From: Dyadobacter jiangsuensis
GTDB lineage: Bacteria > Bacteroidota > Bacteroidia > Cytophagales > Spirosomataceae
Assembly (NCBI RefSeq): GCF_003014695.1
Contig: NZ_PYAS01000011.1
Span: forward strand, 124,001 to 188,000
Length of the DNA stretch: 64,000 nt
Direction: 5' to 3'
Shown here piece by piece: positions 19,962-27,972 of this stretch (positions are counted from its first letter, which is position 1; each line of letters begins with the position of its first letter). A program made the position numbers and the translations under genes. The notes beneath the pieces are model-generated. The model saw only the letters and a program-made list of their open reading frames with translations, had not been told where the DNA came from and searched no databases.

Positions 19962-22900
19962 TTACAAATCCTGCCCGTTGCGATATTCTTCCGATGCCTT
20001 CTTCACAATCGCGTCGCCATCGTGTAAATCACCGAATACCTCAACCAGCGTATCTACCACGACACCGCGTTTTACGGGTACCCATTCTGCTTTTTTGCCT
20101 TTGTCGCGGATCACAAATACCTGCTCGCTGGAATTGACGACGGCGGTTGTTGGTACAAACAGGGTATTGCCGGTGCGCTCGGTGTTGAGCTGCACCTGCG
20201 CATACATGCCGGCTTTGAGCTCGTTGGAGCGGTTATTGACGTCGAATTCCGTCATCATGGAGCGGTTTTCTTCGGACAATGTACGGGAGCTGCGGGCGTA
20301 AACGGCTTTGTAGATTTTTTCGGGGCTAGCCGAAACGGTGAAACTCACCTCGCCCTTGTTCGGAATGGCGCTCGACATGTTTTCGGGGATCGCGAGCGTC
20401 AAACGGAGTTTCGTATTGTCTTCCAGGATGAACAACGGCTTTGCACCGCCTTCACCGGGTCCCACGAGGGCGCCCGGGCTGATATTCCGCTCGGTAATAA
20501 TGCCGTCGAATGGTGCAGTCACCGTCAGGTAGCGCGAAAGCTCTGTTTTTGTTTCCATGAATGATTTCGCGGCTTGTACATTACCTTTTGCCACGGCCAT
20601 TGCAGAACTGTCGGCAGCGGCACGCGCCTTCGCAAGGTCGAGCTCATTAAGTGATACAGCTCCCTCCGTGCGGTTGGTTTTTTGCAGACGACTATATGTC
20701 AGTGCGCTGGCTTGGTAACGCGTGGTGGTTTGCTGAAATGAGGCTTCGGCGGCAATCAGCTGGGCTTTGGCCTGGCTGAGCTCCGAGATGACCTCCGGTG
20801 CTTCTAATACTGACAATACCTGACCTTTCCTGACAAAAGTCCCGCGGTCGACATTTACCGTTTTGACGAACCCCTTCACTTTCGGATGAATGCTGACCTT
20901 GTTCCACGGCTTCAACTCGCCCGGTAATGCGATCTGCTTGGCTGGCTTCATGCTTTTTACATAGGCCATTTCCACAGCTGCCGGCTCTTTGGCGGCGGTT
21001 TCCGCGGGGGCGGTTTTGGCCTCGTGGCTTTCGCTGGTTTCGGCGGTGCTGCTGCATGCGCTCATACCGGCCGCAACGGTGATGAGTATCAGAATGGATT
21101 TCAGGGTATTCATGGAAACGGATGTTTGGAGTTTTTTACGAAAGAAATTGCTTTCAGGATCCTCAGGATCAAGGGATACCGAGTTGACGGACGCTTTACG
21201 CTGAACAAGGGTAAATACCGCCGGTAAAATGAGCAGCGACGCCAGCGTAGAGGCGATCAGCCCGCCGATTACCGCTTGTCCAAGCGGTGCGATCTGGTCG
21301 CCGCCCTCGCCGAGGCCGGACGCCATCGGGATCATACCGGCGATCATCGCGATACTCGTCATAAGAATCGGGCGGATCCGGCTGCCGGCGGCGAGTGTTA
21401 CGGCTTTGTGTGCATCCTGCAATTTGAGGCGCAGGTTTTCGGCGTTAGTTACCATCAGGATCGCATTCGCGACCGATACCCCGACGGACATGATCAATCC
21501 CATGTAGGATTGCAGGTTCAGCGTTGCGCCGGTGAGCAATAGCAGACCAATCGAGCCTACTACCACGGCCGGGATGGTCGAAAGTACCACCAATGACAGT
21601 TTGAAGGATTGATAAGTAGCCGCCAACAAGAGGAACATGATCACGACGGCGATCAGCAGGCCGGTCTGCAAGCTGCTCAGGGTTTCGGTCAGCAATTCGG
21701 TTTGACCTTTCAGCTCCACAATTACCCCGCGTGGCGGCTCGCCTGCATTCTTAATCGCTTTCTGAACGGCGGTAGTGGCCGCTCCAAGATCTTTTTTGTG
21801 AATGTTGGCCGTTACTGTGACCAGTCGGTTCGGGCCGGCGCGGTCGTATTCGCCAGGGGCGGTTTTTTCGGAGAAGGTGGCCACGTCGGCGAGCAGCGGG
21901 TTGCTTACGCCGGTTTTCAAAGGAATCGTACCAATATCTTCTACGGATGTCATCTGGTATTCCGGAATCTGCACCTGCACCTGATAGGCAAGTCCCTTAG
22001 CGTCGTCGAGCCAGAGGTTTTTATCGGTAAAACGGCTGGAAGATGTAGCTGCTACCATCGAACGGGCCACTTGTGTGGAGGTAATGCCCAGTTGCCCGGC
22101 CCGCTCTCGGTCGATTTTCACGTCCAGGATTGGGTATTGCAGTGGCTGTGCAATCTGTACATCGCGGAGGAATGCGATCTGCTGCATTTCCTTCTGAATT
22201 TTGCGTGCAAACCTTCCGGCTTCTTCCACGTCTTTGGCAGCGACGCTTACCTCGATCGGTGTCGACGCGCCCTGGCTCATGATTTTGTCGACGAGCTCGA
22301 TCGGTTCGAATGAAATGGCCAGATTGGGAATTTCTTTGGCTATTCTGGCCCGCAGTTTTTCTTTCAATGCATCCATTCTCACAGGAAACTCTTCTTTCAA
22401 AGAAACCTGCAAAACCGCCTCATGCGGGCCGCTGTTGAACACGAAAATATTGGAAGTACCATAGCTGGATGGGACGGTACCCACATAAGCCGAGGATATT
22501 TCTACGTTCTCCTTTCCTACCTCCGATTTAATCAGGTTCAGAACCTTCAATGTGGCCTCTTCCGTGCGCTCCACACGTGTACCGTCGGGTACCCGCATGC
22601 GCATCTGGAACTGGTGGCTGTTGGCTTTCGGGAGAATATCCGTCCCGATGAGGAAGAACCCGCCGACGATCAATGCAATGCTGCCGACGAGGTATACCGG
22701 CACGATCAGGCGCTTGCCCATAATGCCGCCGAGTACATTCAGGTATTTCAGTTTAAACTTTTCAAAACCGGTAGGCGGCAGCGACGGGTGCGCTCCTTCT
22801 TCGATCACATCGTCGATTTCCTGAGCGTCTAATGCCAATGTCGGCGCCTCGTGATGCGGGTGATCTTTTAGCAGCCAGTTGGAAAGTACCGGTACCAATG

Positions 22901-24338
22901 TCTGCGAAAGCAAAAACGAAGCGATCATCGCGAAACCTACGGCCAGTGAAAGCGGCAGGAACATCGATCTTGGAATACCACTCATGACGAACGACGGCGC
23001 AAAAACGGCCAGAATCGCGAGCAAAATCAGGAATTCGGGGAATGCGATTTCTTTACAAGCGTCCCAAATGGCCTGCTCTTTCGGTTTGCCCATTTCCTGG
23101 TGCTGGTGAATGTTTTCAATGGTCACCGTCGCCTGATCGACGAGTACCCCGATCGCCAAAGCAAGCCCGCTCAATGTCATGATATTGATGGTTTGACCAA
23201 ACAAATTCATCAGTATCACGGCTGAAAGAATGGAAATAGGAATAGTCACAATGACGATAATCACGCTGCGCCAGTCTCTGAGGAAGAGGAGTACCATCAA
23301 ACCGGTCAGTAATGCCCCCAGGATACCCTCGGTGATAAGGCTTTTCAACGAGTTGGTCACATACACCGACTGGTCGAATTCATAGGAGATTTTCACGTCC
23401 TCGGGTACGGCATTGCGCAATTGCGGCAATGCAGCGCGGATATTGTTCACCACGTCCAGCGTCGAGGCGTCAGATTTTTTAACCACAGGAATATAAACCG
23501 CGCGGCGGCCGTTGATCAGCGCGTAGCTCACGGTCACGTCGGCCCCATCTTCCACCACACCCACGTCGCGGATGAACACGGTGGGCCCTGCCCCGACGCG
23601 GATCGGGATATTCAGGAAGTCTTCGGGTTTCTTAATGAGCGAGTTGACGGGCGTCATCAGCGTTTTGTCGCCCATGCGGATGTTACCTGCCGGTGAAGGC
23701 TGGTTGTTGGCAATAATGGATTTGATAACTTCCTCGGGCGTCAAATGATAGCTTCTGATGCGTTCCGGGTCTACGCGCACGACGATCGTGCGCTGGTTAC
23801 CTCCAAATGGCGGCGGGCTGGAAACGCCCTCGATGCGGCTGAACATCGGCCGTACGCGGGAGGAAGCGAAATCCTGGATTTCGTTGAGCGAGCGCGAAGC
23901 ACTTTCGAATACCATCTGGCCGATAGGCACCGAGCTGGCATCGAAGCGGACTACTTGCGGAGGTACGGTGCCCTCGGGCATGTAGGCCTTCGCGCGGGAG
24001 ACGTTGTTGGCAACTTCCGCAGCGGCTTGTGCCATATCCGTGCCGGGGTAGAACGAGAGTTTGATCAATGACAACCCCTGGATCGTCTTCACATCCACAT
24101 CGCGGATACCCGATACATACAGGAAGTGGTCCTGGTAGCGGGTGGCGATGAAGCCGTCCATCTGGTCGGGCGCCATACCACCATAGGGCTGCACCACATA
24201 AATGGTAGGTAAATCGAGGTTGGGGAAAATGTCGACGGGAATGCTCCGTATCGACAGAATCGAGAAAAATAGGATGCCTATCACGACCACCACGATGGAA
24301 ATGGGCTGTCGGAGGGCAGTTCTGATGAGTTGATACAT
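19962..24338 (-). CDS. RND efflux permease fused in frame to its membrane-fusion (HlyD/AcrA-type) adaptor
   Basis: 1458 residues. Residues 1-1075 are a complete RND inner-membrane pump: TM1, two periplasmic porter loops, a TM2-6 bundle with [15 protein letters not shown] at about 400, and a second half ending after TM12. Residues 1076-1458 are an adaptor beginning with its own lipoprotein signal ([20 protein letters not shown], Cys1095), a lipoyl half ([20 protein letters not shown]), an alpha hairpin and a beta-barrel. No stop separates them. The pump C-terminus is cytoplasmic, so an uncleaved signal would act as a thirteenth membrane pass and place the adaptor in the periplasm. Internal initiation at 21113 is the alternative. 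In TM4 the usual Asp-Asp is Asp401-Gln402, and the TM10 Lys is replaced ([11 protein letters not shown]). It works with the TolC encoded upstream. Confidence 0.9.
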
Positions 24339-24356
24339 GCTGTTTGGGTTTGATTT

Positions 24357-24414
24357 GTCATGCTGAGCGGAGTCGAAGCATCTTGCAAGATGCTTCGACT
24401 CCGCTCAGCATGAC
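24357..24414. repeat. 58-bp perfect palindrome (REP-like element)
   Basis: Two 29-base arms, beginning GTCATGCTGAGCGGAGTCG, are exact reverse complements with no loop base. The word TGCTGAGCGGAGTCGAAGCA is, to my knowledge, a widespread intergenic repeat in bacteria (established only from memory). It lies between the tolC stop and the pump start, so it forms a strong hairpin in the tolC-pump mRNA. Confidence 0.93.
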
Positions 24415-24424
24415 CGTTTGCGTA

Positions 24425-25882
24425 TCATTGAGCTATTTGATTTAAGAACACACTTAGGTCACCCGCAGCGGCGGCTTTCAGCAGGAGCGAGCGCCATGCG
24501 TTGCCGTTGGTGACGAACTTGTCGACTTCGGCGCGGTTCAATGCATTTACACTTTGTGCCAGTGTAAAAAGATCCGTCAAACCGCTCTGGTAGCGCGCCT
24601 CTGCCTGGTTGAATGCGGTACGTGCGGCTGCGAGCTGCACGGGTGTGAGGCGTGCCTGCGCGAGCGAGAGCTGAAACTGGATTTCGGATTCGCGCGACTG
24701 GCGATCGAGTTGCAGCTGCTGGGTTTGATACAATGACTTGAAACGCTCGGCCTGGAATTGCTCGGCGTGATAATCGTTTCTGACCTTGAAAATGTTGGTC
24801 AGGTTCCAGCGGGTGGAAATGCCGAAAAGGTAGTTGTAGACCTGGTATTTCACTCCGCTGCCGAAATCGGTACGGAAGGAATCATCTTTGTTCGAGACAC
24901 CCGAACCGCGTCCCCAACCGGCACCTACCAACGAAACGGAGGGCAAATAGGAACGTTTTATAGCCAGACTTCGCGCGACAGAGGCGTCGATTTGGCTCTG
25001 GGAAAAACGTAATGCAGGGTTTTTGAGGAACGACGCGATTTCAGCAGAAGGCACGGGCAATTGGGCGTAGAAACCCATCGTGTCGACCTGAATGCTATCG
25101 CGCAATTCGCCGGTCAGTTCCGAAAACCGGAGGCGCTGAGCCTTTTCCGACCGCTGGCTTTCCAAAAGGAGTAATTGCGCTTTGGCATATTCCGCGGCAG
25201 CCAGCGAGCTATCTACACCCGGGCGCATGCCGGAGGTGACGGCGGCATCCGTCACGCGTTTGAAAACGGCGGCGCGTTCCAGGTTTTGCCGCTGTGCATC
25301 TACCAGTTTCTGGTTAATCAGCAGGAGCAGGTAAGCGTCGATGATTTTGACCTGATGCTGAAAAAGTTCGTTCTCATAGTCGGCCTGGCTGCGGGCGAGG
25401 TCGGCTTTGGCAGCGTTGACGTTGGCATTCACTTTGCCAAAATTGAATACCTTCCAATCGACCATAGCCGTGGTGAAACTGCCGAATGTGGCCGTGTAAA
25501 TGTTTTCCGGACGGATACCACCGGAAGGCGATAATGCGCTACCCTCGTTGGGCAGGAATGCACCCGCCACGCTGTTGCTGGTGGCATAGGTATATTGGTC
25601 CTGCACGATGAATGCGGGCAGGTAGTCGGTTTTAACGGACTTAATGCGGCTTTCGGCGCTGTGTATTTCGGCCTGTTTGGCTCTCAGAAAGGGAAAACTG
25701 CCTTTGCCTTGTTCCAGGGCCTCGTGCAATTTGATATGCTGGGCGTTTGCCTGTACACACGCGAATGCGACGAAAAGGAATGCGAGCCATCGGTTTTTGA
25801 TTTTGAAGATCCGGGGTGCCGGCGAATGCGCATTTCCCGGCGGAAAAAAGCGGGAAACGGAATGATACTGGGAGTGCTTCAT
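24425..25882 (-). CDS. TolC-family outer-membrane efflux protein
   Basis: 485 residues. A long N-terminus precedes a hydrophobic signal segment (WLAFLFVAFACVQANAQ, residues about 32-48); translation may start later, but no closer Met is available. Two TolC repeats of coiled-coil helices follow, with LTPVQLAAARTAFNQAEARYQSGLTDLFTLAQ near the C-terminus as the diagnostic second repeat. It forms the outer-membrane duct for the RND pump-adaptor encoded 86 bases downstream. Expression is probably linked to the divergent two-component system. Confidence 0.92.
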   Translation of the reverse strand: MKHSQYHSVSRFFPPGNAHSPAPRIFKIKNRWLAFLFVAFACVQANAQHIKLHEALEQGKGSFPFLRAKQAEIHSAESRIKSVKTDYLPAFIVQDQYTYATSNSVAGAFLPNEGSALSPSGGIRPENIYTATFGSFTTAMVDWKVFNFGKVNANVNAAKADLARSQADYENELFQHQVKIIDAYLLLLINQKLVDAQRQNLERAAVFKRVTDAAVTSGMRPGVDSSLAAAEYAKAQLLLLESQRSEKAQRLRFSELTGELRDSIQVDTMGFYAQLPVPSAEIASFLKNPALRFSQSQIDASVARSLAIKRSYLPSVSLVGAGWGRGSGVSNKDDSFRTDFGSGVKYQVYNYLFGISTRWNLTNIFKVRNDYHAEQFQAERFKSLYQTQQLQLDRQSRESEIQFQLSLAQARLTPVQLAAARTAFNQAEARYQSGLTDLFTLAQSVNALNRAEVDKFVTNGNAWRSLLLKAAAAGDLSVFLNQIAQ

Positions 25883-25996: not shown

Positions 25997-26008
25997 AACT
26001 TCAGGGTG

Positions 26009-26016
26009 TATTTTTG
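26009..26016 (+). promoter_or_regulatory. Candidate -7 box (TATTTTTG) for the response-regulator gene
   Basis: A perfect match to TAnnTTTG, 22 bases before the start at 26039. The -33 region overlaps the right arm of the inverted repeat (GTTTCC) rather than a TTTG, as might be expected for an activator-dependent promoter (inference). Confidence 0.5.
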
Positions 26017-26038
26017 TAAAGTATCTTTTGAAAGAGGA

Positions 26039-26716
26039 ATGAAAATTTTAGTTGTCGAGGACGAAAAAGGGCTTGCAGAAAGTATCACCGATTACCTTTC
26101 CCGCGAGGGGTTTATTTGTGAGGTAGCCAACACATTCTGGCAGGCCGATGAAAAGATCAGCCTCTACCAGTACGATTGCACGATTGTGGACCTGACGTTG
26201 CCCGATGGCAATGGTTTCGACATTATCCAGACATTGAAAAAGATCGCCGCAGCGACGGGTATTATCATTATTTCGGCGCGTAACACATTGGAAGACAAGT
26301 TGAAAGGGTTGGAGATAGGCTCAGACGATTACATGACCAAGCCATTTCACCTTTCGGAACTGAATGCCCGCGTAAAATCGCTGATCCGGCGCAGGAATTT
26401 CGGCGGTAACAACGATATGATTTGGAAAGATATCCGGGTCAACCTGCCTGCCCGAAAGGTTTTTATTAAGGATATTGAAACCACATTGTCCAAAAAGGAG
26501 TACGATCTGCTGCTCTATTTCCTTTCCAATATCGACGTCGCGTTGACCAAAGAATCTATTGCTGAGCATCTCTGGGGCGATAATATGGATTCAGCCGATT
26601 CGCTGGATATGGTGTATTCCCATATCAAAAACCTTCGCCGGAAGATCGTAGAGAAGGGAGGAAAGGACTATATTCAATCGATTTACGGGATAGGATACAA
26701 ATTCACCGCACCTTGA
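26039..26716 (+). CDS. OmpR-family response regulator
   Basis: 225 residues from the ATG at 26039, where the receiver domain starts (MKILVVEDEKG); the in-frame upstream extension from 26006 contains the -7 box. Phospho-acceptor Asp51 in IVDLTLPDG, a conserved Thr/Ser region (IIIISARNT) and Lys in MTKPFHLSEL complete the receiver. The C-terminal winged helix shows LSKKEYDLLLYFLSN and the recognition-helix region VYSHIKNLRRKI. It overlaps the kinase gene by 4 bases. Confidence 0.95.
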   Translation: MKILVVEDEKGLAESITDYLSREGFICEVANTFWQADEKISLYQYDCTIVDLTLPDGNGFDIIQTLKKIAAATGIIIISARNTLEDKLKGLEIGSDDYMTKPFHLSELNARVKSLIRRRNFGGNNDMIWKDIRVNLPARKVFIKDIETTLSKKEYDLLLYFLSNIDVALTKESIAEHLWGDNMDSADSLDMVYSHIKNLRRKIVEKGGKDYIQSIYGIGYKFTAP

Positions 26717-27972
26717 AACTGCTCGAAAAAGCCAGCCGCATTTACCTGCTCGCCTCGCTGCTGATTTATGTAGCGGTAGGGGTAGCCTTTTTCTGGATCA
26801 TCAAATTCATGATTTACGATGAAGTGGAGAGCAGGCTGATGGTGGAGAAGCAGGATTTCGAGACCTACATCCGAAGCAACGACACTTGGAGCAACAATTC
26901 CTACTTTGTCGAGAATAAAATCGAGGTGGTACCGGTATTCGGCCGATTCGATAATAAGGTCGCATTCACAGACACGCTCATCAGCAACCGCTACGACGAA
27001 ACCGCCGACCCGTTCCGTCAGCTCACATTCTACACCTTAATCGGCGGCTCACCTTACCGCGTTGCGATCCGGAAGTCGATGATCGAATCCTATAAGCTGA
27101 TCGAGGCTATTTCGGCAGCGATGATCGCGTTTCTGGGGCTGCTGCTGGTGAGTACTTTTCTTTTTCACCGTGTTTTGTCGGGTAAATTGTGGAAACCGTT
27201 TTATGATTCGCTGGCCAGGATCAAGGACTTTGACTGGACGAAGAATAAGCCGCTGGAAACCGTCCGAAGCGAAATCACCGAATTCAACGAACTGGGGGAT
27301 GTGATGGAGAAGATGGCGTCGAAAATGCAGCACGATTACCGGAGCCTGCGCGAGTTTACTGAAAATGCTTCTCACGAAATCCAGACGCCCCTCGCGCTCA
27401 TCAATGCGCGGGTGGAGCAATTTATCCAGTCGAAGGATTTGGGCGAAAACCATACGTACTGGATCGAGGAGATTTACCACGCTGCGCGCCGGATGTCGCG
27501 GCTTAACCAGGGATTGTTATTGCTGGCTAAAATTGAAAACCAGCAGTTTACCGAGCAGGAGGACCTGGATCTTTCGGAGCTCGCATTGAACAAGCTGAAA
27601 GATTTCGAAGATATTTTGCAGCATAAAGAAATCGGCTTGACGGTACAATCGACCGGAAGTTTCAGGAAGGTTATGTCTCCCGCATTGGCGGATATTCTTT
27701 TGACAAACCTGATCAGCAATGCGATCCGGCACAACTACACCGGCGGAGAGCTGCGGCTGGAATCCGGTGCCGACTATGTTCAGGTGAGTAATACCGGCAA
27801 TCCGTTGAAGAGTGACCCGGAGCGGTTGTTCGAACGGTTCAAAAAGGAATCGGCGGGCGCGGAATCGCTGGGGCTCGGGCTCGCGATCGTGAAGGAGATT
27901 TGTGATAATTGCGAGCTGGGGATTTCCTACCAGTACGAGGAGCCGATCCATTCGATCAGAATCACAGGGTAG
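26713..27972 (+). CDS. Sensor histidine kinase
   Basis: 419 residues if the TTG at 26713 is the start; it forms a TTGA overlap with the regulator stop and includes TM1 (residues about 10-33). The first in-frame ATG (residue 33) would remove TM1, so TTG is preferred. A periplasmic domain of roughly 95 residues lies between TM1 and TM2 (about 131-152). HisKA has His221 in NASHEIQTPLALI. The ATPase domain has LLTNLISNAIRHN, FERFKK and ESLGLGLAIVKEI. It probably senses an envelope stress or a pump substrate; the ligand is unknown. Confidence 0.93.
   Translation: MKLLEKASRIYLLASLLIYVAVGVAFFWIIKFMIYDEVESRLMVEKQDFETYIRSNDTWSNNSYFVENKIEVVPVFGRFDNKVAFTDTLISNRYDETADPFRQLTFYTLIGGSPYRVAIRKSMIESYKLIEAISAAMIAFLGLLLVSTFLFHRVLSGKLWKPFYDSLARIKDFDWTKNKPLETVRSEITEFNELGDVMEKMASKMQHDYRSLREFTENASHEIQTPLALINARVEQFIQSKDLGENHTYWIEEIYHAARRMSRLNQGLLLLAKIENQQFTEQEDLDLSELALNKLKDFEDILQHKEIGLTVQSTGSFRKVMSPALADILLTNLISNAIRHNYTGGELRLESGADYVQVSNTGNPLKSDPERLFERFKKESAGAESLGLGLAIVKEICDNCELGISYQYEEPIHSIRITG

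Follow-up and report, generated by a model that had tools for sequence, protein, structure and literature searches.

What does a bacterium make from a single open reading frame (ORF) in which a complete efflux permease runs, without a stop codon, into a complete periplasmic adaptor that still carries its own lipoprotein signal? This question is raised by a gene of Dyadobacter jiangsuensis, a member of a genus of soil bacteria, found on contig NZ_PYAS01000011.1 of assembly GCF_003014695.1 within the 64,000-nucleotide stretch (positions 124,001 to 188,000) that was analysed as a whole and is referred to here as the window; all coordinates below are window positions. The gene occupies 19962..24338 on the minus strand, as do all of its parts, and consists of one ORF of 1458 codons that joins a permease of the resistance-nodulation-division (RND) type to an adaptor of the membrane fusion protein (MFP) type. 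The explanation that we favour, with moderate confidence and on sequence grounds, is an RND-adaptor polyprotein that would be cut by signal peptidase II, with extra free adaptor supplied from an internal start codon.

The permease moiety (residues 1-1075, 21114..24338) matches the Pfam family ACR_tran at residues 5-1045 with 665.4 bits, covering model positions 2-1020 of 1021—a full-length match above the curated cut-off that places it among the RND (ACR_tran) permeases. Its final hydrophobic segment ends at residue 1047 and is followed by a tail or linker of 28 residues and by a signal extending from Met1076 to Cys1095. The mature adaptor moiety (residues 1095-1458, 19965..21056) carries the Pfam domains HlyD_D23 (1148-1380) and HlyD_3 (1272-1377), and the NCBIfam model RND_mfp (TIGR01730) matches residues 1122-1456 with 169.5 bits against a cut-off of 94.9. 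The AlphaFold2 model of residues 1040-1458 (mean pLDDT 80.9, pTM 0.56, with most of the first 80 residues below 60) displays an adaptor fold with a two-helix hairpin formed by model helices 142-182 and 191-230, and its closest Foldseek matches were AcrA, MexC-type, MacA and MexA adaptors; the family match and the predicted fold together identify this part as an RND periplasmic adaptor. The original prediction, which described a complete RND permease in frame with a complete MFP and a lipobox signal retained from Met1076, was therefore borne out in both respects, with the Met1076 codon starting at 21113 and the lipobox cysteine being residue 1095.

The open junction is a property of the genus. 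Fused orthologues with 86-100% identity and a stop-free junction were found in 33 of 48 Dyadobacter genomes, with no such orthologue listed for the remaining 15; two of the 33 (L030 and L041) carry a permease part that is interrupted or shortened near its N-terminus, away from the junction. The possibility that an assembly or annotation error had removed a stop, also raised by the original prediction, can be rejected with near certainty, as 33 genomes from different species, several of them assembled in one or two contigs, share the open frame. Outside the genus, no stop-free full-length orthologue was found among the matches listed, best first, from 222 genomes of the family (including the 48 of Dyadobacter) and 390 genomes of the order. 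Distinct orthologues from outside Dyadobacter with an RND identity of at least 70% were encoded as two genes in all 41 loci opened; the RND stop and the adaptor start overlap as ATGA in 18 of these, and in eight the adaptor follows a stop but shares the frame of the permease. A TolC gene precedes the RND gene in all 52 loci checked, with divergent regulators recurring at many of them. Since the outside orthologues are two genes with matching neighbours, the separate state is, on this comparison, ancestral and the fusion derived and kept within Dyadobacter. Separately encoded homologues with the same junction, which had been named beforehand as evidence against the fusion, accordingly exist outside the genus, where they represent the ancestral arrangement, and not within it. 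From the serine codon of a DPES motif to the ATG, the distance is 39 nt in Dyadobacter versus 35 nt in Larkinella, i.e., a net change of +1 modulo 3, which removes the stop and brings the adaptor start into frame.

The codons that join the two moieties also evolve as protein-coding sequence. Within the linker (codons 1060-1075, 21114..21161), where synonymous evolution is slow, changes at codon positions 1, 2 and 3 amounted to 0.12, 0.00 and 5.12 per codon for codons 1060-1067 and to 1.75, 0.38 and 3.38 for codons 1068-1075, and length changes around the joint are whole codons, e.g., a one-codon gap in two species. Because the codon-position bias of frame 0 continues through the linker, this comparative evidence indicates that the joint is translated as one frame that passes through the internal signal. 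The same bias bears on a different scheme, in which -1 slippage (ribosomal or transcriptional) at a run of six A residues in codons 1068-1069 would end the permease at a TGA overlapping the ATG of Met1076 and thereby restore the ancestral ATGA coupling. The A6 run is present in 23 of the 33 orthologues, and a TGA in the -1 frame overlaps ATG1076 in all 33, with an extra ATG two codons upstream in one (L039). However, the run is absent from the other ten and slippage could not be general, the TGA simply follows from ATG followed by AAY, and the frame-0 bias goes on past the A6 run—making slippage a very improbable explanation.

The fate of such a chain depends on the signal at residues 1076-1094 (21057..21113), which would be a thirteenth hydrophobic segment if uncleaved, and on the lipobox cysteine that follows it, Cys1095 (21054..21056), the predicted site of Lgt and LspA action. 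This cysteine is unchanged in 33 of 33 orthologues, and in alignment A1 every one of the 30 rows has it; the residue at -1 is always small (A in 19, S in 13 and G in one), and K1080 is found in 32 of the 33. Conversely, the positions of the signal core (1082-1093) changed 4-12 times each. A basic n-region, a hydrophobic core, a small -1 residue and an invariant Cys are the features of a type II signal, and the genome encodes one Lgt and two LspA enzymes (the latter at G000:C2:472428-472946 and G000:C14:195722-196147). The persistence of Cys and of a small -1 residue in an otherwise variable signal favours lipidation and LspA cleavage over a permanent tether: it argues that Cys1095 is still lipidated, and LspA probably still cuts before it, with lipidation without cleavage as a possible alternative.

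The original prediction had instead proposed that the uncleaved signal serves as a thirteenth transmembrane segment (TM), with adaptor and permease covalently linked at a fixed 1:1 ratio. Several features agree with this proposal, i.e., the open frame, the coding linker, a hydrophobic segment at 1079-1095 (KD17 1.9) and an excess of basic over acidic residues (six K/R versus four D/E) at 1047-1081 that fits a cytoplasmic loop. Yet a plain TM needs neither an invariant Cys nor A, S or G at -1 while the rest drifts, residues 1082-1094 make a rather short hydrophobic core for such a segment, and six further fusions described below likewise keep the Cys. Moreover, a 2:1 ratio of adaptor to permease is given as the prevailing one in a review (PMC4446572). 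A permanent tether is hence possible but unlikely, as it leaves the invariant Cys unexplained, and the claim of a fixed 1:1 product is not well supported given that the Cys, the small -1 residue and the presence of Lgt and two LspA enzymes favour cleavage.

The original prediction also considered that Met1076 (ATG, 21111..21113), the ancestral start codon of the adaptor, might act as an internal start, and this alternative gained strong comparative support from sequence invariance, synonymous constraint and low RNA structure. Met1076 is present in 33 of 33 orthologues. For the 31 genes without breaks, synonymous changes were counted on a tree, with the expectation taken from the same amino acids elsewhere. 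Across codons 1062-1081 (21096..21155), a putative internal translation-initiation region, we counted 48 changes at 17 scorable sites versus 123.9 expected, and none of 200,000 draws was as low—a probability that is indicative, as the draws treat sites as independent. The flanks behaved normally, with 88 changes against 94.7 expected for codons 1046-1061 and 55 against 50.0 for codons 1096-1125. When 70 blocks along the gene were compared, the lowest scores were those of the joint (-6.4) and then of the true start (-4.9), followed by a block at -3.1, which makes the joint the site of the strongest synonymous constraint in the gene.

The RNA around this codon is also exceptionally open. For the segment from -30 to +20 of each ATG codon present in at least ten sequences, the mean fold energy was -0.3 kcal/mol at ATG1076 and -2.2 kcal/mol at the true start, with the other 38 scored ATGs ranging from -4.4 to -16.7—so that ATG1076 is the least structured of 40. 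Among the other ORFs of at least 150 amino acids in the window, one of 306 internal ATGs and four of 38 first ATGs were as open, and the adaptor starts of separate-gene relatives (n=73) had a mean fold energy of -2.7. Codon 1071 (CAA, 21126..21128), which is unchanged in the 33 orthologues, places A residues at -13 and -14 of ATG1076. According to a ribosome-profiling study of Flavobacterium johnsoniae (PMC6847099), start sites in that organism are marked by an A-rich stretch at -14 to -11 and low structure, with A at -12, -13, -6 and -3 combined with low structure being favourable. Taken as a whole, these features of an initiation site at a conserved start codon lend strong comparative support to the notion that translation still starts at Met1076.

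Some observations weigh against a polyprotein with an internal start. The base at -3 of ATG1076, the weak point of the putative start site, is T in 29 of 31 genes and not the favoured A. A control set of separate genes, comprising ten Dyadobacter paralogue operons and 32 orthologues of Spirosomataceae type, displayed no synonymous dip at the adaptor starts, where scorable sites are few and the N-termini too variable to be measured well. Furthermore, the invariance of Met1076 may in part be owed to its place in the n-region of the signal, and cleavage of an internal lipobox behind a protein with 12 TMs was not described in the open-licence PubMed Central (PMC) literature searched. Because the dip exceeds in depth that found at the start of the gene itself and was not seen at the few scorable sites of the controls, another nucleotide-level role for the constraint is possible, e.g., an internal promoter or a small-RNA site. 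We regard such a role as the source of the constraint as highly improbable, since the constraint is centred on the ancestral start codon and no Rfam match was obtained in 20500-21700 up to E=1; a strict version of the Bacteroidetes promoter pattern had no match anywhere in the window and is poorly informative for the joint.

If initiation at Met1076 occurs, it could in principle account for the locus alone, with free adaptor made from this codon and the read-through fusion representing a tolerated by-product or a second pool. The invariant ATG, the synonymous constraint and the open RNA all suit this idea, but in the absence of a stop every permease chain bears an adaptor, so that the fusion is not minor relative to the permease, and the codon bias shows that the linker is selected as protein. 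A fusion in another genus (L163 in genome G328) lacks an ATG at the joint and has a structured candidate GTG (-19.2) while keeping the lipobox, although this is a single case without close relatives. An internal start as the sole explanation therefore seems improbable, and slightly more so than a permanent tether, whereas cleavage and internal initiation are compatible with each other and probably both hold.

In the polyprotein model with an internal start, one gene would encode the permease and the adaptor of a tripartite efflux pump. The permease would insert, the linker would stay in the cytoplasm and the signal would insert as a thirteenth helix; Lgt would then lipidate Cys1095 and LspA would cut before it, so that the adaptor would be released as an ordinary lipoprotein of the inner membrane, while the signal would remain on the C-terminus of the RND protein as a thirteenth helix. 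Some ribosomes would start at Met1076 and produce additional free adaptor, which would yield the surplus of adaptor over permease that the usual 3:6 geometry of the pump calls for. Models of 3:6:3 stoichiometry dominate, with two adaptors per permease as the prevailing ratio, according to the review PMC4446572; on that premise, a strict 1:1 product would fall short of adaptor and the internal start would supply the difference.

Additional RND-adaptor fusions were detected at six places in Bacteroidota. Three of them (L130, L138 and L143) belong to Chitinophagaceae, with 57-59% RND identity, and the other three (L163, L223 and L224) to a more distant RND type; Pfam recognizes both permease and adaptor in the three that were scanned (L143, L163 and L224). 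In all six, a hydrophobic stretch still ends in a Cys, and five keep an ATG, with fold energies of -2.0, 0.0, -0.9, 0.0 and 0.0. The exception is L163, the lone RND-adaptor fusion of its kind, for which no similar relative was found in 120 genomes of its genus. A search of 395 genomes of the phylum with L224 returned no further stop-free full-length match among the matches listed. The layout seems to have had more than one origin in the phylum. Eleven long open frames suspected of being fusions (L070, L073, L074, L075, L076, L164, L165, L225, L226, L227 and L230) turned out to be separate genes, L228 is a frame of RND-TolC type and L229 has no open frame longer than 1061 amino acids.

In-frame fusions of a CusA-type RND protein with a TolC-family protein also occur in Dyadobacter (L158-L160 and L166-L195). 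All 30 loci opened (L166-L195) are open across the joint and retain an internal signal, with no conserved Met; by eye, this signal ends in A|Q in 29 and S|Q in one, resembling a signal peptidase I site. No synonymous dip was seen at the joint in 27 of the 30 loci, where scorable sites are few. As a protein of the outer membrane is unlikely to remain tethered to a permease of the inner membrane, the most plausible reading of these fusions is that of precursors processed by signal peptidase I—which in turn makes the signal-peptidase-II reading of the RND-adaptor gene plausible. More tentatively, and with less confidence than in the polyprotein with an internal start for this gene, we propose a broader scheme in which signal peptidase II would process the chain, the signal would stay as a thirteenth helix and the internal start would set the permease-to-adaptor ratio, the whole arrangement having arisen more than once in Bacteroidota alongside RND-TolC versions processed by signal peptidase I.

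The neighbourhood is that of a tripartite pump. A TolC-family outer membrane factor (Pfam OEP; 24425..25882, minus strand) lies directly upstream in the same orientation, and a divergent pair comprising a response regulator and a PorY-type sensor kinase (26006..27972, plus strand) probably represents the regulators. The 86-nt intergenic stretch that separates the stop of the TolC gene from the RND start contains a perfect inverted repeat with 27-bp arms (24349-24418) and has a predicted fold of -55 kcal/mol; copies of this element form an inverted pair at each of two genomic sites, and two of the 31 orthologues have its core upstream. The permease itself scored below the NCBI cut-offs for the HAE-1 multidrug and HME metal RND subfamilies among the best 25 of 39 families, with 559 versus 1250 for RND_permease_2, 438.6 versus 1250 for RND_permease_1 and 364.4 versus 701.45 for CusA/CzcA. 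The proton relay of AcrB comprises D407, D408 and K940. In an alignment to MdtB, the permease keeps an aspartate (D401) and has Q402 in place of D408 and A957 in place of K940 in 31 of 31 orthologues, and hence lacks two of the three AcrB-type relay residues. D407 and K940 are named in PMC8277102. Separate homologues with a motif match (not deduplicated) carried D-Q in 69 cases, D-E in 17 and D-M in one, with A in 71 and S in nine at the lysine position, and the permease and its relatives appear to form a clade of RND proteins whose proton relay is unusual.

The locus shares an RND permease, a hairpin adaptor and a TolC-family partner with RND tripartite pumps of the AcrAB/MexAB type (3:6:3), and differs from them in that permease and adaptor form one frame and in having Q402/A957 versus D408/K940 of AcrB. 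The CusA-type RND-TolC fusions of Dyadobacter likewise run from the RND C-terminus in frame into a downstream tripartite component via an internal signal, whereas their partner is an outer membrane factor, their cleavage site is like that of signal peptidase I and no Met is conserved. In the Bradyrhizobium fbcH cytochrome b/c1 precursor, for which our literature search returned no confirmation, a membrane protein and its exported partner are made as one chain that is cut at an internal signal, with signal peptidase I and cytochromes in place of signal peptidase II and an efflux pump. Pump components are also joined covalently in fused dimeric adaptors (natural DSY0927 and engineered AcrA dimers; PMC4446572), although these link adaptor to adaptor and not permease to adaptor. 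Our searches of the open-licence PMC literature returned no account of an RND-TolC fusion, a bacterial signal-peptidase polyprotein or a natural RND-adaptor fusion, and no natural RND-adaptor fusion is described in the accessible parts of PMC8277102 and PMC10872679.

What bears on the biology of these pumps is the combination of a lineage-conserved fusion with a cut site and a start codon. The components of such systems are usually assumed to be produced as separate proteins that come together in a 3:6:3 ratio. A permease-adaptor fusion of this kind makes it testable whether a pump needs excess free adaptor, and also whether LspA acts on a signal located behind a 12-helix protein. For genome annotation, it serves as a warning that a single ORF may stand for two or even three proteins.

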